From positions 1 to 36,992 of the IMG/VR virus record IMGVR_UViG_3300023174_000371: a DNA stretch of 36,992 nucleotides; one strand, given 5' to 3'. How positions within the stretch are numbered: the stretch's first letter is position 1; each line of letters opens with the position of its first letter. The position numbers and the translations under genes were made by a program. Below are positions 13,112 through 36,992 of this stretch, one piece after another. The notes beneath the pieces are model-generated. The model ran no database searches, was not told the origin of the DNA, and saw only the letters and a list, made by a program, of their open reading frames with translations. This DNA comes from a virus.

Positions 13112-13567
13112 ATGCAGACTTTTCTACCATACGCGCATTTCAAACACACTGCTAGCGTGCTTGACGATAAACGATTAGGCAAACAGCGTGTTGAGGCTTG
13201 GCAGATCCTTAGAGCATTACGAGGAGAAACCAAAGGTTGGGTCAATCACCCAGCGACAGTAATGTGGCAAGGGCATGAACAGACACTAATTGAGTACGGC
13301 TTGGAGATCTGCTTGGAGTGGAAGCAAAGAGGCTTCGAAGACACGCTCTACGCCCGATTTGAGGCTGAATTCAATGGCTGGTCTGACGCTAGACCTTGGT
13401 GGATTGGTTATGAGCCATTACACATTAGTCATAGATCTAATCTCAGACGCAAAGATCCAATTTACTACGGCGCTTTCACTGAACCAATTGACCTACCTTA
13501 TATTTGGTGCAAGCCTGACGGAACTTTTAAGGTAGGAGAAAAACCAGAGGTGGCACTTGTCAATTAG
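13112..13567 (+). CDS. pyrimidine-dimer DNA glycosylase-like, MSMEG_6728 family
   Basis: This 151-residue protein matches the actinobacterial MSMEG_6728 family related to T4 endonuclease V: MQTFLPYAHF start, SVLDDKRLGKQRVEAWQILRAL (15-37), HPATVMWQGHE (46-56) and SHRSNLRRKDP (105-115). Such enzymes excise UV-made pyrimidine dimers in DNA. It is directly preceded by the short repeat module, so it may be separately controlled. In a sunlit freshwater setting, UV repair is a plausible benefit. It may also meet the modified base made by the 16479-19438 genes. Confidence 0.8.
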   Translation: MQTFLPYAHFKHTASVLDDKRLGKQRVEAWQILRALRGETKGWVNHPATVMWQGHEQTLIEYGLEICLEWKQRGFEDTLYARFEAEFNGWSDARPWWIGYEPLHISHRSNLRRKDPIYYGAFTEPIDLPYIWCKPDGTFKVGEKPEVALVN

Positions 13568-16478: not shown

Positions 16479-17150
16479 ATGGAGATTACAAAGGCGCAAG
16501 TCACAGATCTGAAAGAATACCGCAACAACCCACGCAAGGGTAATGTTGATCTGATTGCTGAATCATTGTCCAAATACGGACAATATAAACCAATCACAGT
16601 GAACAAATCAACAGGTGAAATACTTGCCGGTAATCACACTTTCAAAGCGGCAAAACAATTAGGTTGGTCAGACATTGATGTTGTTTATGTAGATGTTGAT
16701 GATACAACTGCGGCAAAAATTGTAGCCATAGACAACAGAGCGTCTGACATGGGCGAATACGACAAAATTGTTTTAGCAGATTTACTAGACAGCATGGACA
16801 CGCTTGAAGGATCAGGCTACACATTTGACGAGTATGACGATCTTAAAGCGAAAATTGATGAGGCTACTGCGCCTTCCCTAGAACACAAAACATATTTTGC
16901 TTCACTTGAAGCAGGCGAAACAGGTCAATCAGGCACAAGGTTTATACCTTCATTGGGAGATTACGCTGAAAGGTATATTAACAAGGCAACCCGTATGCTC
17001 ATGTGCGATTATCACAATGACACCTATGTTTGGATTGTAGATAAATTGATAGAATATAGAACCAATAACAAAATAAACAGCAATGCTGAAGCCATATTGA
17101 AACTGGTTGAAGATGTTGCTGGGGAAAAATGCCCTCATGAAATTATCTGA
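16479..17150 (+). CDS. ParB-like nuclease-domain protein of the DNA-modification cassette
   Basis: This 223-residue protein's N-terminal 90 residues form the ParB/sulfiredoxin-like domain: YRNNPRKGNVDLIAESLSKYGQYKPITV (14-41), GEILAGNHTFKAAKQLGW (46-63) and KIVAIDNRASD (80-90). In chromosomal ParB this fold binds CTP; in phages it is often linked to base-modification genes, as noted by Iyer and colleagues. The C-terminal half is unassigned. It overlaps the dioxygenase, so it may direct or license modification. Confidence 0.78.
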   Translation: MEITKAQVTDLKEYRNNPRKGNVDLIAESLSKYGQYKPITVNKSTGEILAGNHTFKAAKQLGWSDIDVVYVDVDDTTAAKIVAIDNRASDMGEYDKIVLADLLDSMDTLEGSGYTFDEYDDLKAKIDEATAPSLEHKTYFASLEAGETGQSGTRFIPSLGDYAERYINKATRMLMCDYHNDTYVWIVDKLIEYRTNNKINSNAEAILKLVEDVAGEKCPHEII

Positions 17151-18015
17151 TCTGCCTGTATACAAAATTAAAAGAGTTATGTCTGAAGAAGACGCAACTG
17201 CTTTAGTTGGAACCACTGTGCCTGACTACGAGCCAACATGTATTGACGAAGGCATTTGGATAGATGAAGATACTGAAGAAATTGTGTTTGTCTATTTCCC
17301 AATGGAGGAAGAAGTATCACTACTTAGAGCATCAGTGTTAAATATCAATTACGGAGAAACAATCCGTCAATCAACAGGTTTGAAAAACAAATCAAGAACA
17401 TTTGGCATGGCGCCAAGAAAAGTATTTCAACGCAGAGAAAGTTGCCGACCAACATCATTGGCTTATGAACAACCTGAAGAACACGCAGTATTGGTTGCTT
17501 TCGCAGAGAAGTTTGCCAAGATGTATAAAGAGTTTGCGCCTGATTTGTACGAACAAGACAAAAAGAACCTTGCTGACGCAGGATTAGCAGATGAATGGAG
17601 ATTGACTGATGACGCATTATGGACTTCAGGAGTTGTCAACAAGGCTTCAACGCTTCCTTATCACAGAGATGGATTCAACTTTGCTACATGGTCAGCCATG
17701 CCAGTTATTCGCAAAGAAATGAAAGGCGGATACCTTACTTTGCCTGAATACAATTTTACTTGCTCATGCCGCGATGGTTGGGTGACTTTTTTTGCTGGAT
17801 ACAAATATGTTCACGGTGTAACACCAATGACGCCTAAAAGCGCTGATTCATATAGATATTCAATTGTTTATTACGCATTACGAGGATTGAAAGATTGTTT
17901 TACTTACGCAGTCGAAACAGCCAAAGCAAGAGAGAGCAGAACTGCCCGTGAAGACAACATGGCTAGAGCGCTCAAAGGCGAAGTAGATATGCCCGTTCTC
18001 GGTAAAGGTAAATGA
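17137..18015 (+). CDS. TET/JBP-like 2-oxoglutarate/Fe(II) dioxygenase
   Basis: This 292-residue protein starts at ATG 17137 inside the ParB end; the in-frame ATG at 17107 is less likely. The iron ligands are in PYHRDGF (H176, D178) and HGVTPM (H226), and R240 in SYRYSIVYY should bind 2-oxoglutarate. GGYLTLPEYNF (197-207) is the strand pair typical of TET/JBP enzymes. These oxidise the methyl group of thymine (JBP) or 5-methylcytosine (TET) in DNA. The next two genes suggest the oxidised base is modified further. The substrate cannot be decided from sequence. Confidence 0.75.
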   Translation: MKLSDLPVYKIKRVMSEEDATALVGTTVPDYEPTCIDEGIWIDEDTEEIVFVYFPMEEEVSLLRASVLNINYGETIRQSTGLKNKSRTFGMAPRKVFQRRESCRPTSLAYEQPEEHAVLVAFAEKFAKMYKEFAPDLYEQDKKNLADAGLADEWRLTDDALWTSGVVNKASTLPYHRDGFNFATWSAMPVIRKEMKGGYLTLPEYNFTCSCRDGWVTFFAGYKYVHGVTPMTPKSADSYRYSIVYYALRGLKDCFTYAVETAKARESRTAREDNMARALKGEVDMPVLGKGK

Positions 18016-18899
18016 CAGTTTGGCAAGATTACGCTGAATTACATCAAGCAATGGTTGACGCCAACGAACTTGATCCAATCTATCCACTGCTGAAAGAAAT
18101 AGCAAGACTACTTGACTTAAACAAAGATGAAGCAGCGTGGTTGTGCCATGTTTATGTTGCTTATTACGATTTTGGTTCAGGGCTAACTTGCTACGATCAA
18201 GTCAGATCTCCAGCAGTGCCTTCAGAGGATCTATTGAAATTACCTTGCGACACTGAGCGTAGAAATCACCGCACACCTAGCAAACTCAAACAACATTTTG
18301 AATCAGTTGTGTCTATTGCTGAGAACAATGGCGGATTGCACACTTGGTTATCAAAATACATACGAGATACACCCCAACAGAGTTGGACGGCAATGCTTGA
18401 TCCGCTTGAAACAATATACGGCAACGGCAGGTGGGCTTCATACAAACTTGTAGAGATGATTGGATTTGTTTGCGATCTACCCGTTGAAGCGCCTGATATG
18501 GGTCACGCCAACAGCACTGGTCCAAGAGCAGGATTGAACTACCTTTATTCAGGATTACCTTCAGGTAACAGACCTTCTGAGATCGCATACTTAGATAAAG
18601 TGTCATTGAATTTGATAGACAAATTGGCTGAACAAGGAGTTCAAACAAGGCTACAAGAGGCAGAAACATCTCTCTGCGCATTGAAGTCGTTAATCAAAGG
18701 CACTTACTACATTGGCGAAGATTTGGACGCCATGCTGGAGGAGATAAAACGGCAACCAAATGGCTTGACAGAATTGGCTCTAGAAGCCCGATCAAATGTG
18801 TTCCCACATAGATACTTGGGGGAGAAAATGGGTTGGGAAGGTGTAGACAAAGCAAGGTTGAAGGCATACAAAGAAACAGGTAAGATCCTTATTAGATAA
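18012..18899 (+). CDS. aGPT-PPlase2 / amino acid:DNA transferase-like protein
   Basis: This 295-residue, mostly helical protein resembles the phage family called alpha-glutamyl/putrescinyl thymine pyrophosphorylase clade 2. It has an N-terminal WLCHVYVAYYDFGSGLTCYDQV (44-65), then IYGNGRWASYKLVEMI (136-151), then a DMGHANSTGPRAGLNYL segment (163-179). Family members replace the phosphate on a hydroxymethyl pyrimidine with an amine such as an amino acid or polyamine. Family match is by recalled pattern, so moderately sure. It overlaps the dioxygenase by 4 nt and precedes the kinase by 11 nt. Confidence 0.68.
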   Translation: MTVWQDYAELHQAMVDANELDPIYPLLKEIARLLDLNKDEAAWLCHVYVAYYDFGSGLTCYDQVRSPAVPSEDLLKLPCDTERRNHRTPSKLKQHFESVVSIAENNGGLHTWLSKYIRDTPQQSWTAMLDPLETIYGNGRWASYKLVEMIGFVCDLPVEAPDMGHANSTGPRAGLNYLYSGLPSGNRPSEIAYLDKVSLNLIDKLAEQGVQTRLQEAETSLCALKSLIKGTYYIGEDLDAMLEEIKRQPNGLTELALEARSNVFPHRYLGEKMGWEGVDKARLKAYKETGKILIR

Positions 18900-18910
18900 C
18901 GGAGGCAATC

Positions 18911-19438
18911 GTGAAGGTAATTTATTTAATTGGCGCACCTGGCGCTGGCAAAACTACTTTAACTGAAGCATTTACAAAAACTTGGATTGAAACAGCAAAG
19001 GTTGAAGATCCAATCAAATATAGAACACACGACACTCCTCATGGCAAAGCAATATCACTTGGTTGGCTTAGACCTGCCTTTGGAGGCACAGATACACTAG
19101 GCAACACTGCCATTGTTTCAATAGAACCTTGGCTACCAACAGTTCAAACAGATCTGATATACGGAGAAGGCGACAGGCTTGCCAACGGAAGATTTTTTCA
19201 ATTAGCACAATCAATTGGCGAATTTCATTTGTTTTATCTGAACACTGAGCCTGCACTTTGCGCTGAAAGAAGGCGACAAAGATCTGAACTTACTGGTAAG
19301 CATCAAAATGAAACATGGGTCAAGGGAAGGGAAACAAAACACCGCAACCTTGCTTCATTGTTCAAAGCATTTGAAATACCTTCAGGGCTATCACCTGAGC
19401 GTGGCGCAGATCTTATGAATCATGTAATCTTTTCCTAA
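18911..19438 (+). CDS. P-loop kinase, probable hydroxymethyl-pyrimidine DNA kinase
   Basis: This 175-residue protein has Walker A GAPGAGKTT (8-16) followed by FGGTDTLGN (57-65), GEGDRLANGRFF (86-97) and ETWVKGRETKHRNLA (near 138-152), a set typical of the small actinophage kinases beside TET/JBP genes. In well-studied systems a 5-hydroxymethyl-deoxyuridine DNA kinase adds phosphate to 5hmU so that a transferase can replace it. Here it follows the transferase-like gene and supports the same three-step route. GTG start after GGAGG. Confidence 0.75.
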   Translation: MKVIYLIGAPGAGKTTLTEAFTKTWIETAKVEDPIKYRTHDTPHGKAISLGWLRPAFGGTDTLGNTAIVSIEPWLPTVQTDLIYGEGDRLANGRFFQLAQSIGEFHLFYLNTEPALCAERRRQRSELTGKHQNETWVKGRETKHRNLASLFKAFEIPSGLSPERGADLMNHVIFS

Positions 19439-19451
19439 CGATAAGGAAAAC

Positions 19452-19925
19452 ATGAGCGACAAAGAGGAAAAAGAGTTAGAGTTAATCAAGCGTGAGACGC
19501 AGGTTGTTGAATTAAGGCGCACTGGCGCTACTTGGGAGGGTATTGCTCAGGTAGTTGGATATAGCAACGCTGGAGGCGCTTACAAGGCTTATCAGAGGGC
19601 AATGGCGAGGGTGTTTGATCAACCTGTCAAAGAACTACGCAACGCAGAACTAGACAGGTTAGACAGATTACAAAGAGCATTTTGGAAAGACGCAGTAGAC
19701 GGCAATGTGAGATCAGCAGACTTCATATTGCGAGTAATAGATAAAAGAGCAAAATTGCTCGGATTAGACGCACCAACAAAAATACAGGCAGAGGTGGTGA
19801 ATTATGACGCAGGAGTTATTGACGCCGAAATTGAACGAATCATCAGAGAACTTAACGAATTGGATCAAAGCATCACGGTGGAGGTGGAGAAAGGAACTAG
19901 CACGGAAGGAACAACTACCGCCTGA
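19452..19925 (+). CDS. terS: small terminase subunit
   Basis: This 157-residue protein has an N-terminal helix-turn-helix (VVELRRTGATWEGIAQVVGYSNAGGAYKAYQRA, 18-50), then helices RLDRLQRAFWKDAVDGNVRSADFILRVIDKRAKLLGLD, the usual build of phage small terminases that recognise packaging DNA. It lies directly before the large terminase, overlapping by 122 nt. The kinase upstream ends 13 nt before it, so packaging and modification genes may share a transcript. Confidence 0.82.
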   Translation: MSDKEEKELELIKRETQVVELRRTGATWEGIAQVVGYSNAGGAYKAYQRAMARVFDQPVKELRNAELDRLDRLQRAFWKDAVDGNVRSADFILRVIDKRAKLLGLDAPTKIQAEVVNYDAGVIDAEIERIIRELNELDQSITVEVEKGTSTEGTTTA

Positions 19926-21180
19926 AGGTGATTGGAACATTTGGTTATACATGGCTGGGCGCGGTGCTGGTAAAACAAGAACTGCGGCAGAGTGGCTTTG
20001 CTGGGAGGCTATAAGACAACCCAATACACGCTGGGCAATTGTTGCTCCAACTTATGGTGACGCAAGAGATACCTGCGTTGAAGGTGAATCAGGTGTTTTA
20101 GCGATTTTACGCAGATACAAAGTATTGCGCGATAAAGGTTGGAACAGGTCAATGGGTGAGATCTACCTTAACAACGGCAGTCAAATCAAATTATTTTCAG
20201 CAGACAAGCCTGATCGCTTCCGTGGACCACAGCACCATGGCGCTTGGTGTGACGAGTTAGCGGCATACAGATACGCAGACGCTTGGGATCAACTTCAATT
20301 CGGTATGCGCTTAGGAGAAAAGCCACGCATTGTAGTAACAACAACACCTAGACCAACAGCATTGATTAGATCTTTAGCAGGGCGTAATGACGGATCAGTG
20401 GCAATTACTAGAGGATCAACATTTGACAATGCGGCAAACCTAGCACCCTCAGCATTACTTGAATTAGAGGCTAGGTATCACGGCACAAGATTAGGCAGAC
20501 AAGAGTTATACGGAGAAATACTTGACGATGTAGAAGGCGCATTGTGGACAAGAGGAGTTATTGAAAGAAACAGACTACAAAAAGCGCCAGCGCTCGCAAG
20601 AATTGTCGTATCAGTAGATCCTGCGGTAACAAACAACGCTGATAGTGATGAAACAGGAATCATTGTTTGCGGATCAGACACGCAAGGCAACGGATATGTA
20701 TTGGCTGATTATTCTTTTAGAGGATCGCCATTGGATTGGGCAAGCAAGGTTGTTCAAGTGTTTCAAGATCACAAAGCAGATAGCATTTTGGTTGAAGTCA
20801 ATCAAGGTGGAGATATGGTTGCTTCAGTATTGAGGCAGGTCAAACAAGGATTGCCTATACGGGAAGTGCGAGCGCATGTCGGTAAAAGATTACGCGCTGA
20901 ACCTGTTGCCGCAATGTATGAACAAGGGCGTATTCATCACATTGGAGAGTTTGCTCAACTTGAAGATCAAATGACTAATTGGACAGCCGATATGCCTGAT
21001 TCACCTGACAGGCTTGACGCAATGGTTCAGGGCTTTCAAGATCTACTAGCAACTCAAAATGTCGCAAATTATTTCAATGCAATAGCAAACTTTTGCGAAA
21101 AGTGCGGATTACCTAATCCAAAGACAAGTCCAGTATGTTTGAAGTGCGGAAGCGCTATCATTACACCAGCCGTAGGATAA
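19804..21180 (+). CDS. terL: large terminase subunit with C-terminal zinc ribbon
   Basis: This 458-residue protein has Walker A GRGAGKT (52-58), Walker B GAWCDE (D150, E151) and nuclease residues in VVSVDPAV and the later VEVNQGGD segment: an ATPase motor plus headful-type nuclease. The family-typical LARKEQLPPEGDWNIWLYMAGRG lies partly inside the small-subunit overlap, so the overlap is genuine. After the nuclease, C431, C434, C445 and C448 form an unusual zinc ribbon. Confidence 0.93.
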   Translation: MTQELLTPKLNESSENLTNWIKASRWRWRKELARKEQLPPEGDWNIWLYMAGRGAGKTRTAAEWLCWEAIRQPNTRWAIVAPTYGDARDTCVEGESGVLAILRRYKVLRDKGWNRSMGEIYLNNGSQIKLFSADKPDRFRGPQHHGAWCDELAAYRYADAWDQLQFGMRLGEKPRIVVTTTPRPTALIRSLAGRNDGSVAITRGSTFDNAANLAPSALLELEARYHGTRLGRQELYGEILDDVEGALWTRGVIERNRLQKAPALARIVVSVDPAVTNNADSDETGIIVCGSDTQGNGYVLADYSFRGSPLDWASKVVQVFQDHKADSILVEVNQGGDMVASVLRQVKQGLPIREVRAHVGKRLRAEPVAAMYEQGRIHHIGEFAQLEDQMTNWTADMPDSPDRLDAMVQGFQDLLATQNVANYFNAIANFCEKCGLPNPKTSPVCLKCGSAIITPAVG

Positions 21181-35408: not shown

Positions 35409-36265
35409 TGCCTGTTGTAACTAATTATTATTCATTTTCTTTTAATAGCCAAGTGTTTGGCGGCGCTGGATCTCCTTATCAAATATTAAGCGTAGACGGA
35501 TTAGAGGGTGTGCCTTCAATTCGTAACCAAGACGACAATCGCGGATACTCAGACGGTATGTTTACAGGTCAAGATTTCTACAATGGCAGATCAATTACCA
35601 TGATTGTTCAAACATTTGGTTCAGGCGCTACTTCAGCGCAAACTAATTTCAATACATTACAATCTAAGTTGTTGCCTCAAACAACAGGCACTACGCCTTT
35701 ATACTTTTTATTATCGCCAACAGGAGTTGAACAATTTATCAATGCTCGCGTTAGAGGTATTAAAACAACAATAGATCCTAACTATACATACGGAATGATT
35801 ACATCTCAAATAGAGTTTTTTTGTCCATTTCCTTTTTATTTTAACAATGTGTCAAGGACTGCTTCACTTGCAATTTCAAACCCTTTGGGTAGAACCTATA
35901 ACCGTACATACAATTTGGTTTACGGAGGAGGATCTTACGCAACTACTACTGCTGTCACTAATGACGGCTGGGCTACCTCTTATCCTACAATTACATTAAA
36001 TGGACCAATTACAAACCCTACTTTGGGAAATGTTACGCAAGGCTACTATTTGACTTTTTCAGGAACGTACACAAACACAGACAGCCTAGTAATCAATCTT
36101 CAAGACAAACTTATTACATTAAATGGCAATACGGCTAGAAATCTTTTGACTTCAGGACAGTGGTTTTCTGCCCCTCCAGGCACTTCTCAATTTTATTTGA
36201 CTGGCAGTAGTACGCTTGCTGGCACTACGGCTGCAAATGTTCAATGGTATGATTCTTACATCTAA
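35408..36265 (+). CDS. distal tail (Dit-like) protein
   Basis: This 285-residue protein lies directly after the tape measure. A beta-rich N-terminus with GLEGVPSIRNQDDNRGYSDGMFTGQDFYNGRSITMIVQ is the usual Dit hallmark, followed by QIEFFCPFPFYF and a beta-sandwich C-terminal half. Dit forms the hexameric hub between tube and tip. Start codon overlaps the tape measure stop (TAATG). Confidence 0.75.
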   Translation: MPVVTNYYSFSFNSQVFGGAGSPYQILSVDGLEGVPSIRNQDDNRGYSDGMFTGQDFYNGRSITMIVQTFGSGATSAQTNFNTLQSKLLPQTTGTTPLYFLLSPTGVEQFINARVRGIKTTIDPNYTYGMITSQIEFFCPFPFYFNNVSRTASLAISNPLGRTYNRTYNLVYGGGSYATTTAVTNDGWATSYPTITLNGPITNPTLGNVTQGYYLTFSGTYTNTDSLVINLQDKLITLNGNTARNLLTSGQWFSAPPGTSQFYLTGSSTLAGTTAANVQWYDSYI

Positions 36266-36274
36266 GGAGAGATA

Positions 36275-36992
36275 ATGGCATTACGCAATCCACCCAGTTG
36301 GCTACAAAATGGATCTCACCCTGCCGAAAATGACCGCCTTACTTCGCAAGCCATGTACTATACGACAGGCATTGTAGGTTTAACCACTTTAGTTAATTCA
36401 TTAAAAGTAACTCAAAACTCTCCTGCTGGTATGTCAGTGCTTGTTGATTCAGGTTGGGCAGCGATAGTAGGAACAACGCAAGCCAACATGGGTGTTTATG
36501 TTTCTTACAATGACGCTTCTACAACCGCAACAATAACTACTGCTAATCCAAGCAATCCTCGTATTGATCGTGTTTGTTTAACTGTATCAGACGCTTATTA
36601 CACAGGTTCTTTGAATCAAGTAGCAATCAATGTCGTGGCTGGCACTCCTGCCGCTAGTCCTGTTGCACCTGCTACCCCAGCCAATTCAATTTCTTTGGCT
36701 ACCATTGCAGTTGGAGCAGGCGTGACATCAATTTTAACTGCAAACATTACTGATACAAGAGTTGAAACAACTACTTTGTTGCCTGCTGGCGATATCACGG
36801 CTGTTACCGCAGGAACTGGTTTATCAGGAGGCGGAACTTCTGGGGCTGTTACCTTAAATATTGCAACTAGTCAATCAGATTTAATAATTAAAGGCTTTGA
36901 GGAGGATGTAAATGTTGTTGCCTCAGCCGCTACTGGAACCATTAACTTTGATGTATCTACTGCATCTGTTTGGTATTACACCTCAAACGCCT
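36275..36992 (+). CDS. tail fibre or tip protein, N-terminal part
   Basis: The frame starts after AAGGAGAGATA and runs to the end of the window (239 codons and one base). It begins MALRNPPSWLQNGSHPAENDR, then NSPAGMSVLVDSGWAAIVG and a repeated beta-strand region. The final visible segment TINFDVSTASVWYYTSNA resembles a module of aquatic phage fibre proteins that normally continues for roughly another 100 residues, so the gene is cut by the window end. Likely a host-binding tip protein. Confidence 0.72.
   Translation, partial: MALRNPPSWLQNGSHPAENDRLTSQAMYYTTGIVGLTTLVNSLKVTQNSPAGMSVLVDSGWAAIVGTTQANMGVYVSYNDASTTATITTANPSNPRIDRVCLTVSDAYYTGSLNQVAINVVAGTPAASPVAPATPANSISLATIAVGAGVTSILTANITDTRVETTTLLPAGDITAVTAGTGLSGGGTSGAVTLNIATSQSDLIIKGFEEDVNVVASAATGTINFDVSTASVWYYTSNA

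Follow-up and report, generated by a model that had tools for sequence, protein, structure and literature searches.

A four-gene cassette predicted to build hypermodified thymine after replication, and a variable gene slot before the terminase genes, in an IMG/VR phage lineage

Described pathways and the present cassette

In the thymidine hypermodification of phages M6, ViI and phiW-14, 5-hydroxymethyldeoxyuridine (5-hmdU) is thought to be made in the nucleotide pool, polymerised and then phosphorylated in DNA (PMC6449724). The present study concerns an IMG/VR virus contig of 36,992 bases from a freshwater phage (record IMGVR_UViG_3300023174_000371; the whole of this stretch is termed the window), in which positions 16479-19438 hold four same-strand genes, with ends overlapping or nearly touching, for a ParB-like protein, a TET/JBP dioxygenase (TET), an amino acid:DNA transferase (ADDT, named aGPT-PPlase2 by annotators of Actinobacteria phages) and a P-loop kinase. 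The cassette resembles the M6 pathway in its PF18724 transferase, its P-loop kinase and a modification that would be finished on DNA, whereas M6 has a PF00303 enzyme and PolA, lacks Tet_JBP and encodes a PF18748 kinase with a helical partner, PF18723. The two enzyme families of the Nalpha-GlyT/5-NmdU pathway (PDB 8z2m, 8z2o, 8z79) stand in a row in sister cassettes of relatives of the window, but in the window itself the transferase is present and the lyase is absent. Base J synthesis (JBP plus a glucosyltransferase) and the glucosylation of 5-hydroxymethylcytosine (hmC) in T4 follow a similar logic, in which a base is oxidised or hydroxymethylated and then decorated. Unlike these systems, the window cassette contains no glycosyltransferase, although relatives carry a TET-associated glycosyltransferase (TAGT) or a protein with the fold of T4 beta-glucosyltransferase (BGT) after TET.

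The window cassette joins an already predicted and annotated kind of system. In 2013, Iyer et al. reportedly predicted hydroxymethylpyrimidines made by TET/JBP enzymes as starting points, with the same families and the same logic. By annotation, two cultured phages, Tonitrus (Rhodococcus, PP978825) and Wooper (Gordonia, OP910132), carry ParB, TET, aGPT-PPlase2 and kinase genes close to the terminase, arranged as in the window, together with an extra protein of ~290 amino acids (aa) after the kinase. The Tonitrus proteins are 35-46% identical to those of the window, and the authors describing this phage named its cassette a thymidine hypermodification system (PMC11955845). A megablast search of the window against cultured phages gave no match.

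Herein, we propose that the cassette builds hypermodified thymine after replication, a reading to which we assign a probability of about 70%. Gene content, protein families, catalytic residues, conserved linkage and the lack of rival base-making enzymes were computed, and around them we infer the following order of events. Host enzymes would make deoxythymidine triphosphate and replicate the phage genome with thymine in its ordinary form. The dioxygenase, possibly loaded on DNA by the ParB-like protein, would then hydroxylate some of the thymines at the 5-methyl group to give 5-hydroxymethyluracil (hmU), and the P-loop kinase would phosphorylate the hydroxyl of this base in DNA. Finally, a free amino acid, for which glycine is the best guess, would be joined by ADDT through its amino group in place of the phosphate, yielding an aminoacyl-methyl-uracil. 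The untrimmed conjugate is the expected end product because the trimming enzymes found in relatives (flavin lyase and a pyridoxal phosphate (PLP)-like enzyme) are missing from the window. Such decorated thymine would shield phage DNA from restriction.

Enzyme families and the starting base

The window TET combines the Tet_JBP profile and the HxD...H...R motif with a TET-like fold. Residues H176, D178, H226 and R240, and also N181, were invariant in an alignment of 39 homologues, and the predicted structure (predicted local distance difference test, pLDDT, 80) best matched TET2 (Z 15.9) and NgTet1 (Z 14.6), with CcTet, CMD1 and AlkB-like enzymes ranking below them. The start was placed at the ATG at 17137; a TTG at 17107 is possible, yet the relatives align from 17137. 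The label 'queuine tRNA-ribosyltransferase' returned for this protein (PHROG 6059, E 5e-85) was rejected as an error, since the Pfam match, active site and structure are those of TET. Many phage records give the TET gene the same name, which looks like a propagated label error.

The transferase, predicted by family to be an ADDT, shares PF18724 with M6 gp51 (E 1.4e-46), and R83, R84, G139, L194, E218 and C222 were invariant in 21 aligned transferases including that protein. The family profile matched PDB 8z2m, an entry named glycinyltransferase, at E 1.7e-35. The stronger match of this profile to PDB 25qc is circular because M6 gp51 is one of its members, and the window transferase alone matched 25qc marginally (E 0.036).

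The kinase is the weakest link of the cassette. The protein falls in PF18751 and has the invariant Walker A residues G8, G11, G13, K14 and T16, whereas M6 gp54 and gp55 fall in PF18748 (5-hmdU DNA kinase) and PF18723 (its helical domain). Among the proteins tested here, the PF18751 model scored highest with mycobacteriophage Vista gp1 (361 bits; L099:1-567), encoded next to the terminase of a phage that has neither Tet_JBP nor ADDT, and relatives of the kinase were found in 387 phage records versus 94 for TET. The hmU-kinase role is predicted by association only, owing to this family difference, the Vista context and the unequal record counts, and the association is strong within the window's own lineage. 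The name 'terminase small subunit' (PHROG 800) was rejected for the kinase in this lineage, in which 21 cassettes lack the gene and another small-terminase candidate is present. The family also stands beside the terminase in many other Mycobacterium phage records, and its members are labelled 'adenylate kinase' or 'terminase small subunit' in records, which again looks like propagated label errors.

The original prediction, made from the sequence of the window, had described four consecutive coupled genes of these four families, and the open reading frames were recovered at the positions it gave, separated by overlaps of 14 nucleotides (nt; ParB/TET) and 4 nt (TET/transferase) and by a gap of 11 nt before the kinase, with 13 nt between the kinase and the next gene. 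All four families scored above their curated Pfam cut-offs (ParB_N 31.8 bits, cut-off 26.3; Tet_JBP 47.3, 34.9; ADDT 83.9, 26.2; Ploopntkinase3 90.2, 27). The dioxygenase residues that it named (HxD at 176-178, H226, R240) proved exact. A placement of the proteins starting at 17137, 18012 and 18911 in unrelated families, which it had set as the result that would speak against it, did not appear in the profile searches. The hydroxymethyl-pyrimidine kinase pattern that it assigned held as far as the P-loop kinase pattern is concerned, and the Pfam family is not that of the characterised 5-hmdU DNA kinase.

Thymine is the only 5-methylpyrimidine that is certain to be present in phage DNA, and it is better supported as the starting base because the alternatives need a deoxyuridine monophosphate (dUMP) hydroxymethylase or a C5-methyltransferase. 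Both enzymes were sought across 39 whole TET-bearing records: the window, freshwater relatives (fragments in some cases) and 14 cultured phages of Mycobacterium, Gordonia, Rhodococcus, Microbacterium, Arthrobacter and Prochlorococcus; M6 and Vista, which lack TET, served for comparison. PF00303 (thymidylate synthase/dUMP hydroxymethylase) was found in 0/39 and in the M6 control only. PF00145 (C5-methyltransferase) was absent from 35/39 records, among them the window and all 14 cultured phages. It matched in four freshwater relatives only (G007, G008, G009 and G012; loci L040, L042, L044 and L067), which span three cassette types, and lay ~2 kb upstream of TET in G007 (L040) and G009 (L044), ~5 kb from TET in G012 and ~11 kb in G008. 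None of the 23 records searched for ThyX (PF02511), the window included, contained it. PolA, the only polymerase family searched, was found in M6 and several mycobacteriophages but not in the window or in 13 freshwater relatives. The contig looks permuted and nearly complete, with tail genes at 36265-36992 and 1-122, and lacks ~1.5-2 kb of the tail region relative to G002 and G013. Both of these relatives cover the missing stretch, and neither PF00145 nor PF00303 occurs anywhere in either record. The earlier report of no dUMP hydroxymethylase, thymidylate synthase or DNA methyltransferase in the window holds for PF00303, PF02511 and PF00145, and the missing tail/fibre region, where a search for such genes had been advised, yielded none in the relatives that span it.

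Variation of the slot between TET and the small terminase

Scanning IMG/VR gave 113 confirmed TET relatives, and 80 of these were retrieved. Related phages of ~40 kb share HNH, single-stranded DNA-binding protein, helix-turn-helix, ParB and TET genes on the left and the small terminase, large terminase (TerL) and portal on the right. The intervening genes vary, and the ParB-TET pair is constant, across 68 intact intervals (the window included; the kinases of L040 and L041 counted as present). The cassette types were ADDT with a flavin adenine dinucleotide (FAD) protein and kinase (22), a glycosyltransferase-type protein designated GTa with a haloacid dehalogenase (HAD)-like partner (14), a divergent ADDT with a PLP-like protein and kinase (12), ADDT with kinase (8, the type of the window), GTb (5), kinase alone (5), GTc (1) and TAGT (1). 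The kinase accompanied ADDT in 42/42 cassettes and glycosyltransferase-type genes in 0/21; Fisher values on these counts ignore relatedness and are not to be read on their own. Mapped on a 54-row TerL tree, the slot requires a minimum of 13 changes of cassette type and of 6 changes of coarse class. The supported branches yielded four independent contrasts for ADDT versus kinase, with 2-3 in the expected direction and none opposed, and three for glycosyltransferase versus kinase, all in the expected direction.

Several of the exchanged genes could be placed in families. The FAD protein that follows ADDT in 22 relatives matches DAO in Pfam, and its profile best matched PDB 8z2o and 8z79, named flavin-dependent lyase (E 2e-12), entries that we take to belong to the Nalpha-GlyT/5-NmdU thymidine pathway. 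The divergent transferase is again PF18724 (E 1.9e-18). Between it and the kinase lies the PLP-like gene (L027:6224-7285; homologues in L056, L067 and L071), whose matches to 1-aminocyclopropane-1-carboxylate deaminase are weak; M6 likewise has a PLP enzyme (gp52) adjoining its transferase. The TAGT cassette is that of L073. The GTa protein (L042:10884-11822; homologues in L034, L036, L043, L045, L051 and L054) had no match in Pfam or PHROG, and its model (pLDDT 85) best matched T4 BGT (Z 19.3 over 298 residues, 4.0 A), followed by T4 alpha-glucosyltransferase (Z 16.9) and generic GT-B enzymes near 16. GTa is always paired with a 148-aa partner that is HAD-like by eye. GTb and GTc, which make up 6 of the 21 glycosyltransferase-type cassettes, are termed glycosyltransferase-like from sequence reading and one weak PHROG match, and profile searches of the PDB with the glycosyltransferase-like and PLP-like genes returned nothing firm. 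A protein with a PF05118 Asp/Arg beta-hydroxylase domain lies between transferase and kinase at L096:2656-3759 (LilMcDreamy gp4) and L077:5181-6266, and might carry out a further oxidation, with the attached amino acid as one conceivable target.

Other loci carry fewer genes. In a distant group (L080-L083), ParB-TET stands directly before the terminase genes with no decoration gene, and the end product is possibly bare hmU. At the kinase-alone loci (L057, L060, L065, L066 and L068), no transferase was found beside TET and kinase. Among the cultured phages, MementoMori, KayaCho (L093), Nigel (L097) and Kharcho have TET and kinase, with PF18724 found nowhere in these phages; the end product in the five loci, KayaCho and Nigel might be phosphorylated hmU. 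Reprobate and Kozie have ADDT with a flavoprotein, Prince has a divergent ADDT, LilMcDreamy has ADDT with the Asp/Arg-hydroxylase-domain protein, and Indlovu has TET, TAGT, a PIG-L deacetylase and the kinase.

The slot thus alternates between activation plus amino-acid transfer and apparent direct glycosylation, a pattern to be anticipated if a hydroxymethyl group is placed on the base by TET; this alternation fits both hmU and hmC. We incline, at slightly better than even odds, to the view that a constant ParB-TET pair writes hmU into finished DNA and that the slot before the terminase has been repeatedly exchanged among decoration modules. In this scheme, the modules would comprise ADDT plus kinase for an amino acid, an amino acid trimmed by the flavin lyase, the second ADDT with the PLP-like enzyme, bare phosphate from the kinase alone, the T4 BGT-fold protein, other glycosyltransferase-like proteins and TAGT. 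New here, with no earlier description found, are the exchange of decoration modules at a fixed position in this lineage and the orphan with the BGT fold.

Alternative routes, genomic context and meaning

Several observations weigh against the thymine-first reading. TET2 and NgTet1, the closest structural matches of the window TET, were solved as 5-methylcytosine (5mC) enzymes, nothing in its active site excludes 5mC, four relatives have a C5-methyltransferase match (in G007 and G009 close upstream of TET), and 5mC may also come from a host C5-methyltransferase. The kinase lies outside the PF18748/PF18723 families of M6, its relative in Vista adjoins the terminase in a phage without Tet_JBP and ADDT, and the tree-independent contrasts (n=3-4) are too few for significance. 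The points concerning TET fit a route in which a host enzyme methylates cytosine, TET converts 5mC to hmC, and kinase and transferase decorate cytosine; moreover, ADDT and kinase give way in 14 relatives to the GTa protein, which models as T4 BGT, whose natural substrate is hmC. We regard this route as unlikely, given that no C5-methyltransferase was found in 35/39 records, including all the cultured ones, that uracil-derived bases are the substrates of the known ADDT and flavin-lyase families, and that dependence on host methylation would be fragile when the hosts belong to several genera. A version with a phage-encoded methyltransferase is not supported, as PF00145 is absent from the window and those 35 records. 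The absence of methyltransferases, together with the ADDT family and the flavin lyase, favours hmU over hmC.

The points concerning the kinase bear on a different scheme, in which TET, ADDT and ParB modify thymine, the P-loop protein performs another step (nucleotide kinase or packaging accessory) and ADDT is activated differently. The departure of PF18751 from the M6 kinase family, the position of its relatives beside the terminase in TET-less phages and its co-occurrence with a glycosyltransferase in Indlovu are consistent with such a scheme, but the pairing with ADDT in every such cassette of the window lineage and with none of the glycosyltransferase-type replacements, and the existence of a separate small terminase candidate, make it rather improbable. 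Even less credence is due to a route as in M6, with hydroxymethyl-deoxyuridine triphosphate made in the pool and polymerised while TET does something else. The ADDT family is common to the window and M6, yet PF00303 and ThyX are absent from the window and the relatives searched, PolA, the one polymerase family searched, was not found in the window and 13 freshwater relatives, and the small missing region is filled in close relatives without such a gene; this route was rejected on the failure to find PF00303 and PolA. The thymine-first model of the original prediction emerges as the best supported, in view of the PF00303 and PF00145 counts and the sister cassettes with a flavin-lyase homologue. 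We hold it as probable and as something that we infer, because the kinase belongs to another family than the proven hmU kinases and a host methyltransferase is possible.

The four genes are packed as an operon before the terminase (Table 1). The label 'RNase E' (PHROG 645) for the small terminase candidate looks wrong. Elsewhere in the window, at 13112-13567, lies a pyrimidine dimer DNA glycosylase-like gene (PF03013; NCBIfam MSMEG_6728 family, E 1.7e-45), and the phage that carries it is itself a probable modifier of pyrimidines.

Table 1. Cassette genes of the window and the two terminase genes that follow them
Feature	Position	Strand	Basis
ParB-like protein, 223 aa	16479..17150	+	PF02195 E 1.5e-07; PHROG 723 E 4e-47; stands ahead of TET in almost every relative
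TET/JBP dioxygenase, 292 aa; predicted to hydroxylate the thymine 5-methyl group on DNA	17137..18015	+	PF12851 E 1.7e-12
ADDT (aGPT-PPlase2), predicted amino acid:DNA transferase, 295 aa	18012..18899	+	PF18724 E 1.9e-23
P-loop kinase, 175 aa, starting at GTG; predicted kinase for hmU in DNA	18911..19438	+	PF18751 E 1.6e-25
Probable small terminase, closing the swap slot on the right	19452..19925	+	Position before TerL; conservation
Large terminase (TerL), independent tree marker	19804..21180	+	PHROG 979 E 4e-46

The use of thymine in DNA as the start from which a phage TET leads to amino-acid decoration is an old prediction, and no test of it was found in the available literature. Cultured Mycobacterium smegmatis phages hold matched variants (Reprobate; KayaCho and Nigel; Indlovu), none of them with a phage C5-methyltransferase or hydroxymethylase, so that the idea is directly testable. 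The swap slot is also a source of uncharacterised predicted DNA-modifying enzymes, including the T4 BGT-like protein. If the proposal is true, the thymine-first and wholly post-replicative route would be a modular platform, through which these phages alter the surface chemistry of their DNA while the nucleotide pool and the polymerase are left untouched.

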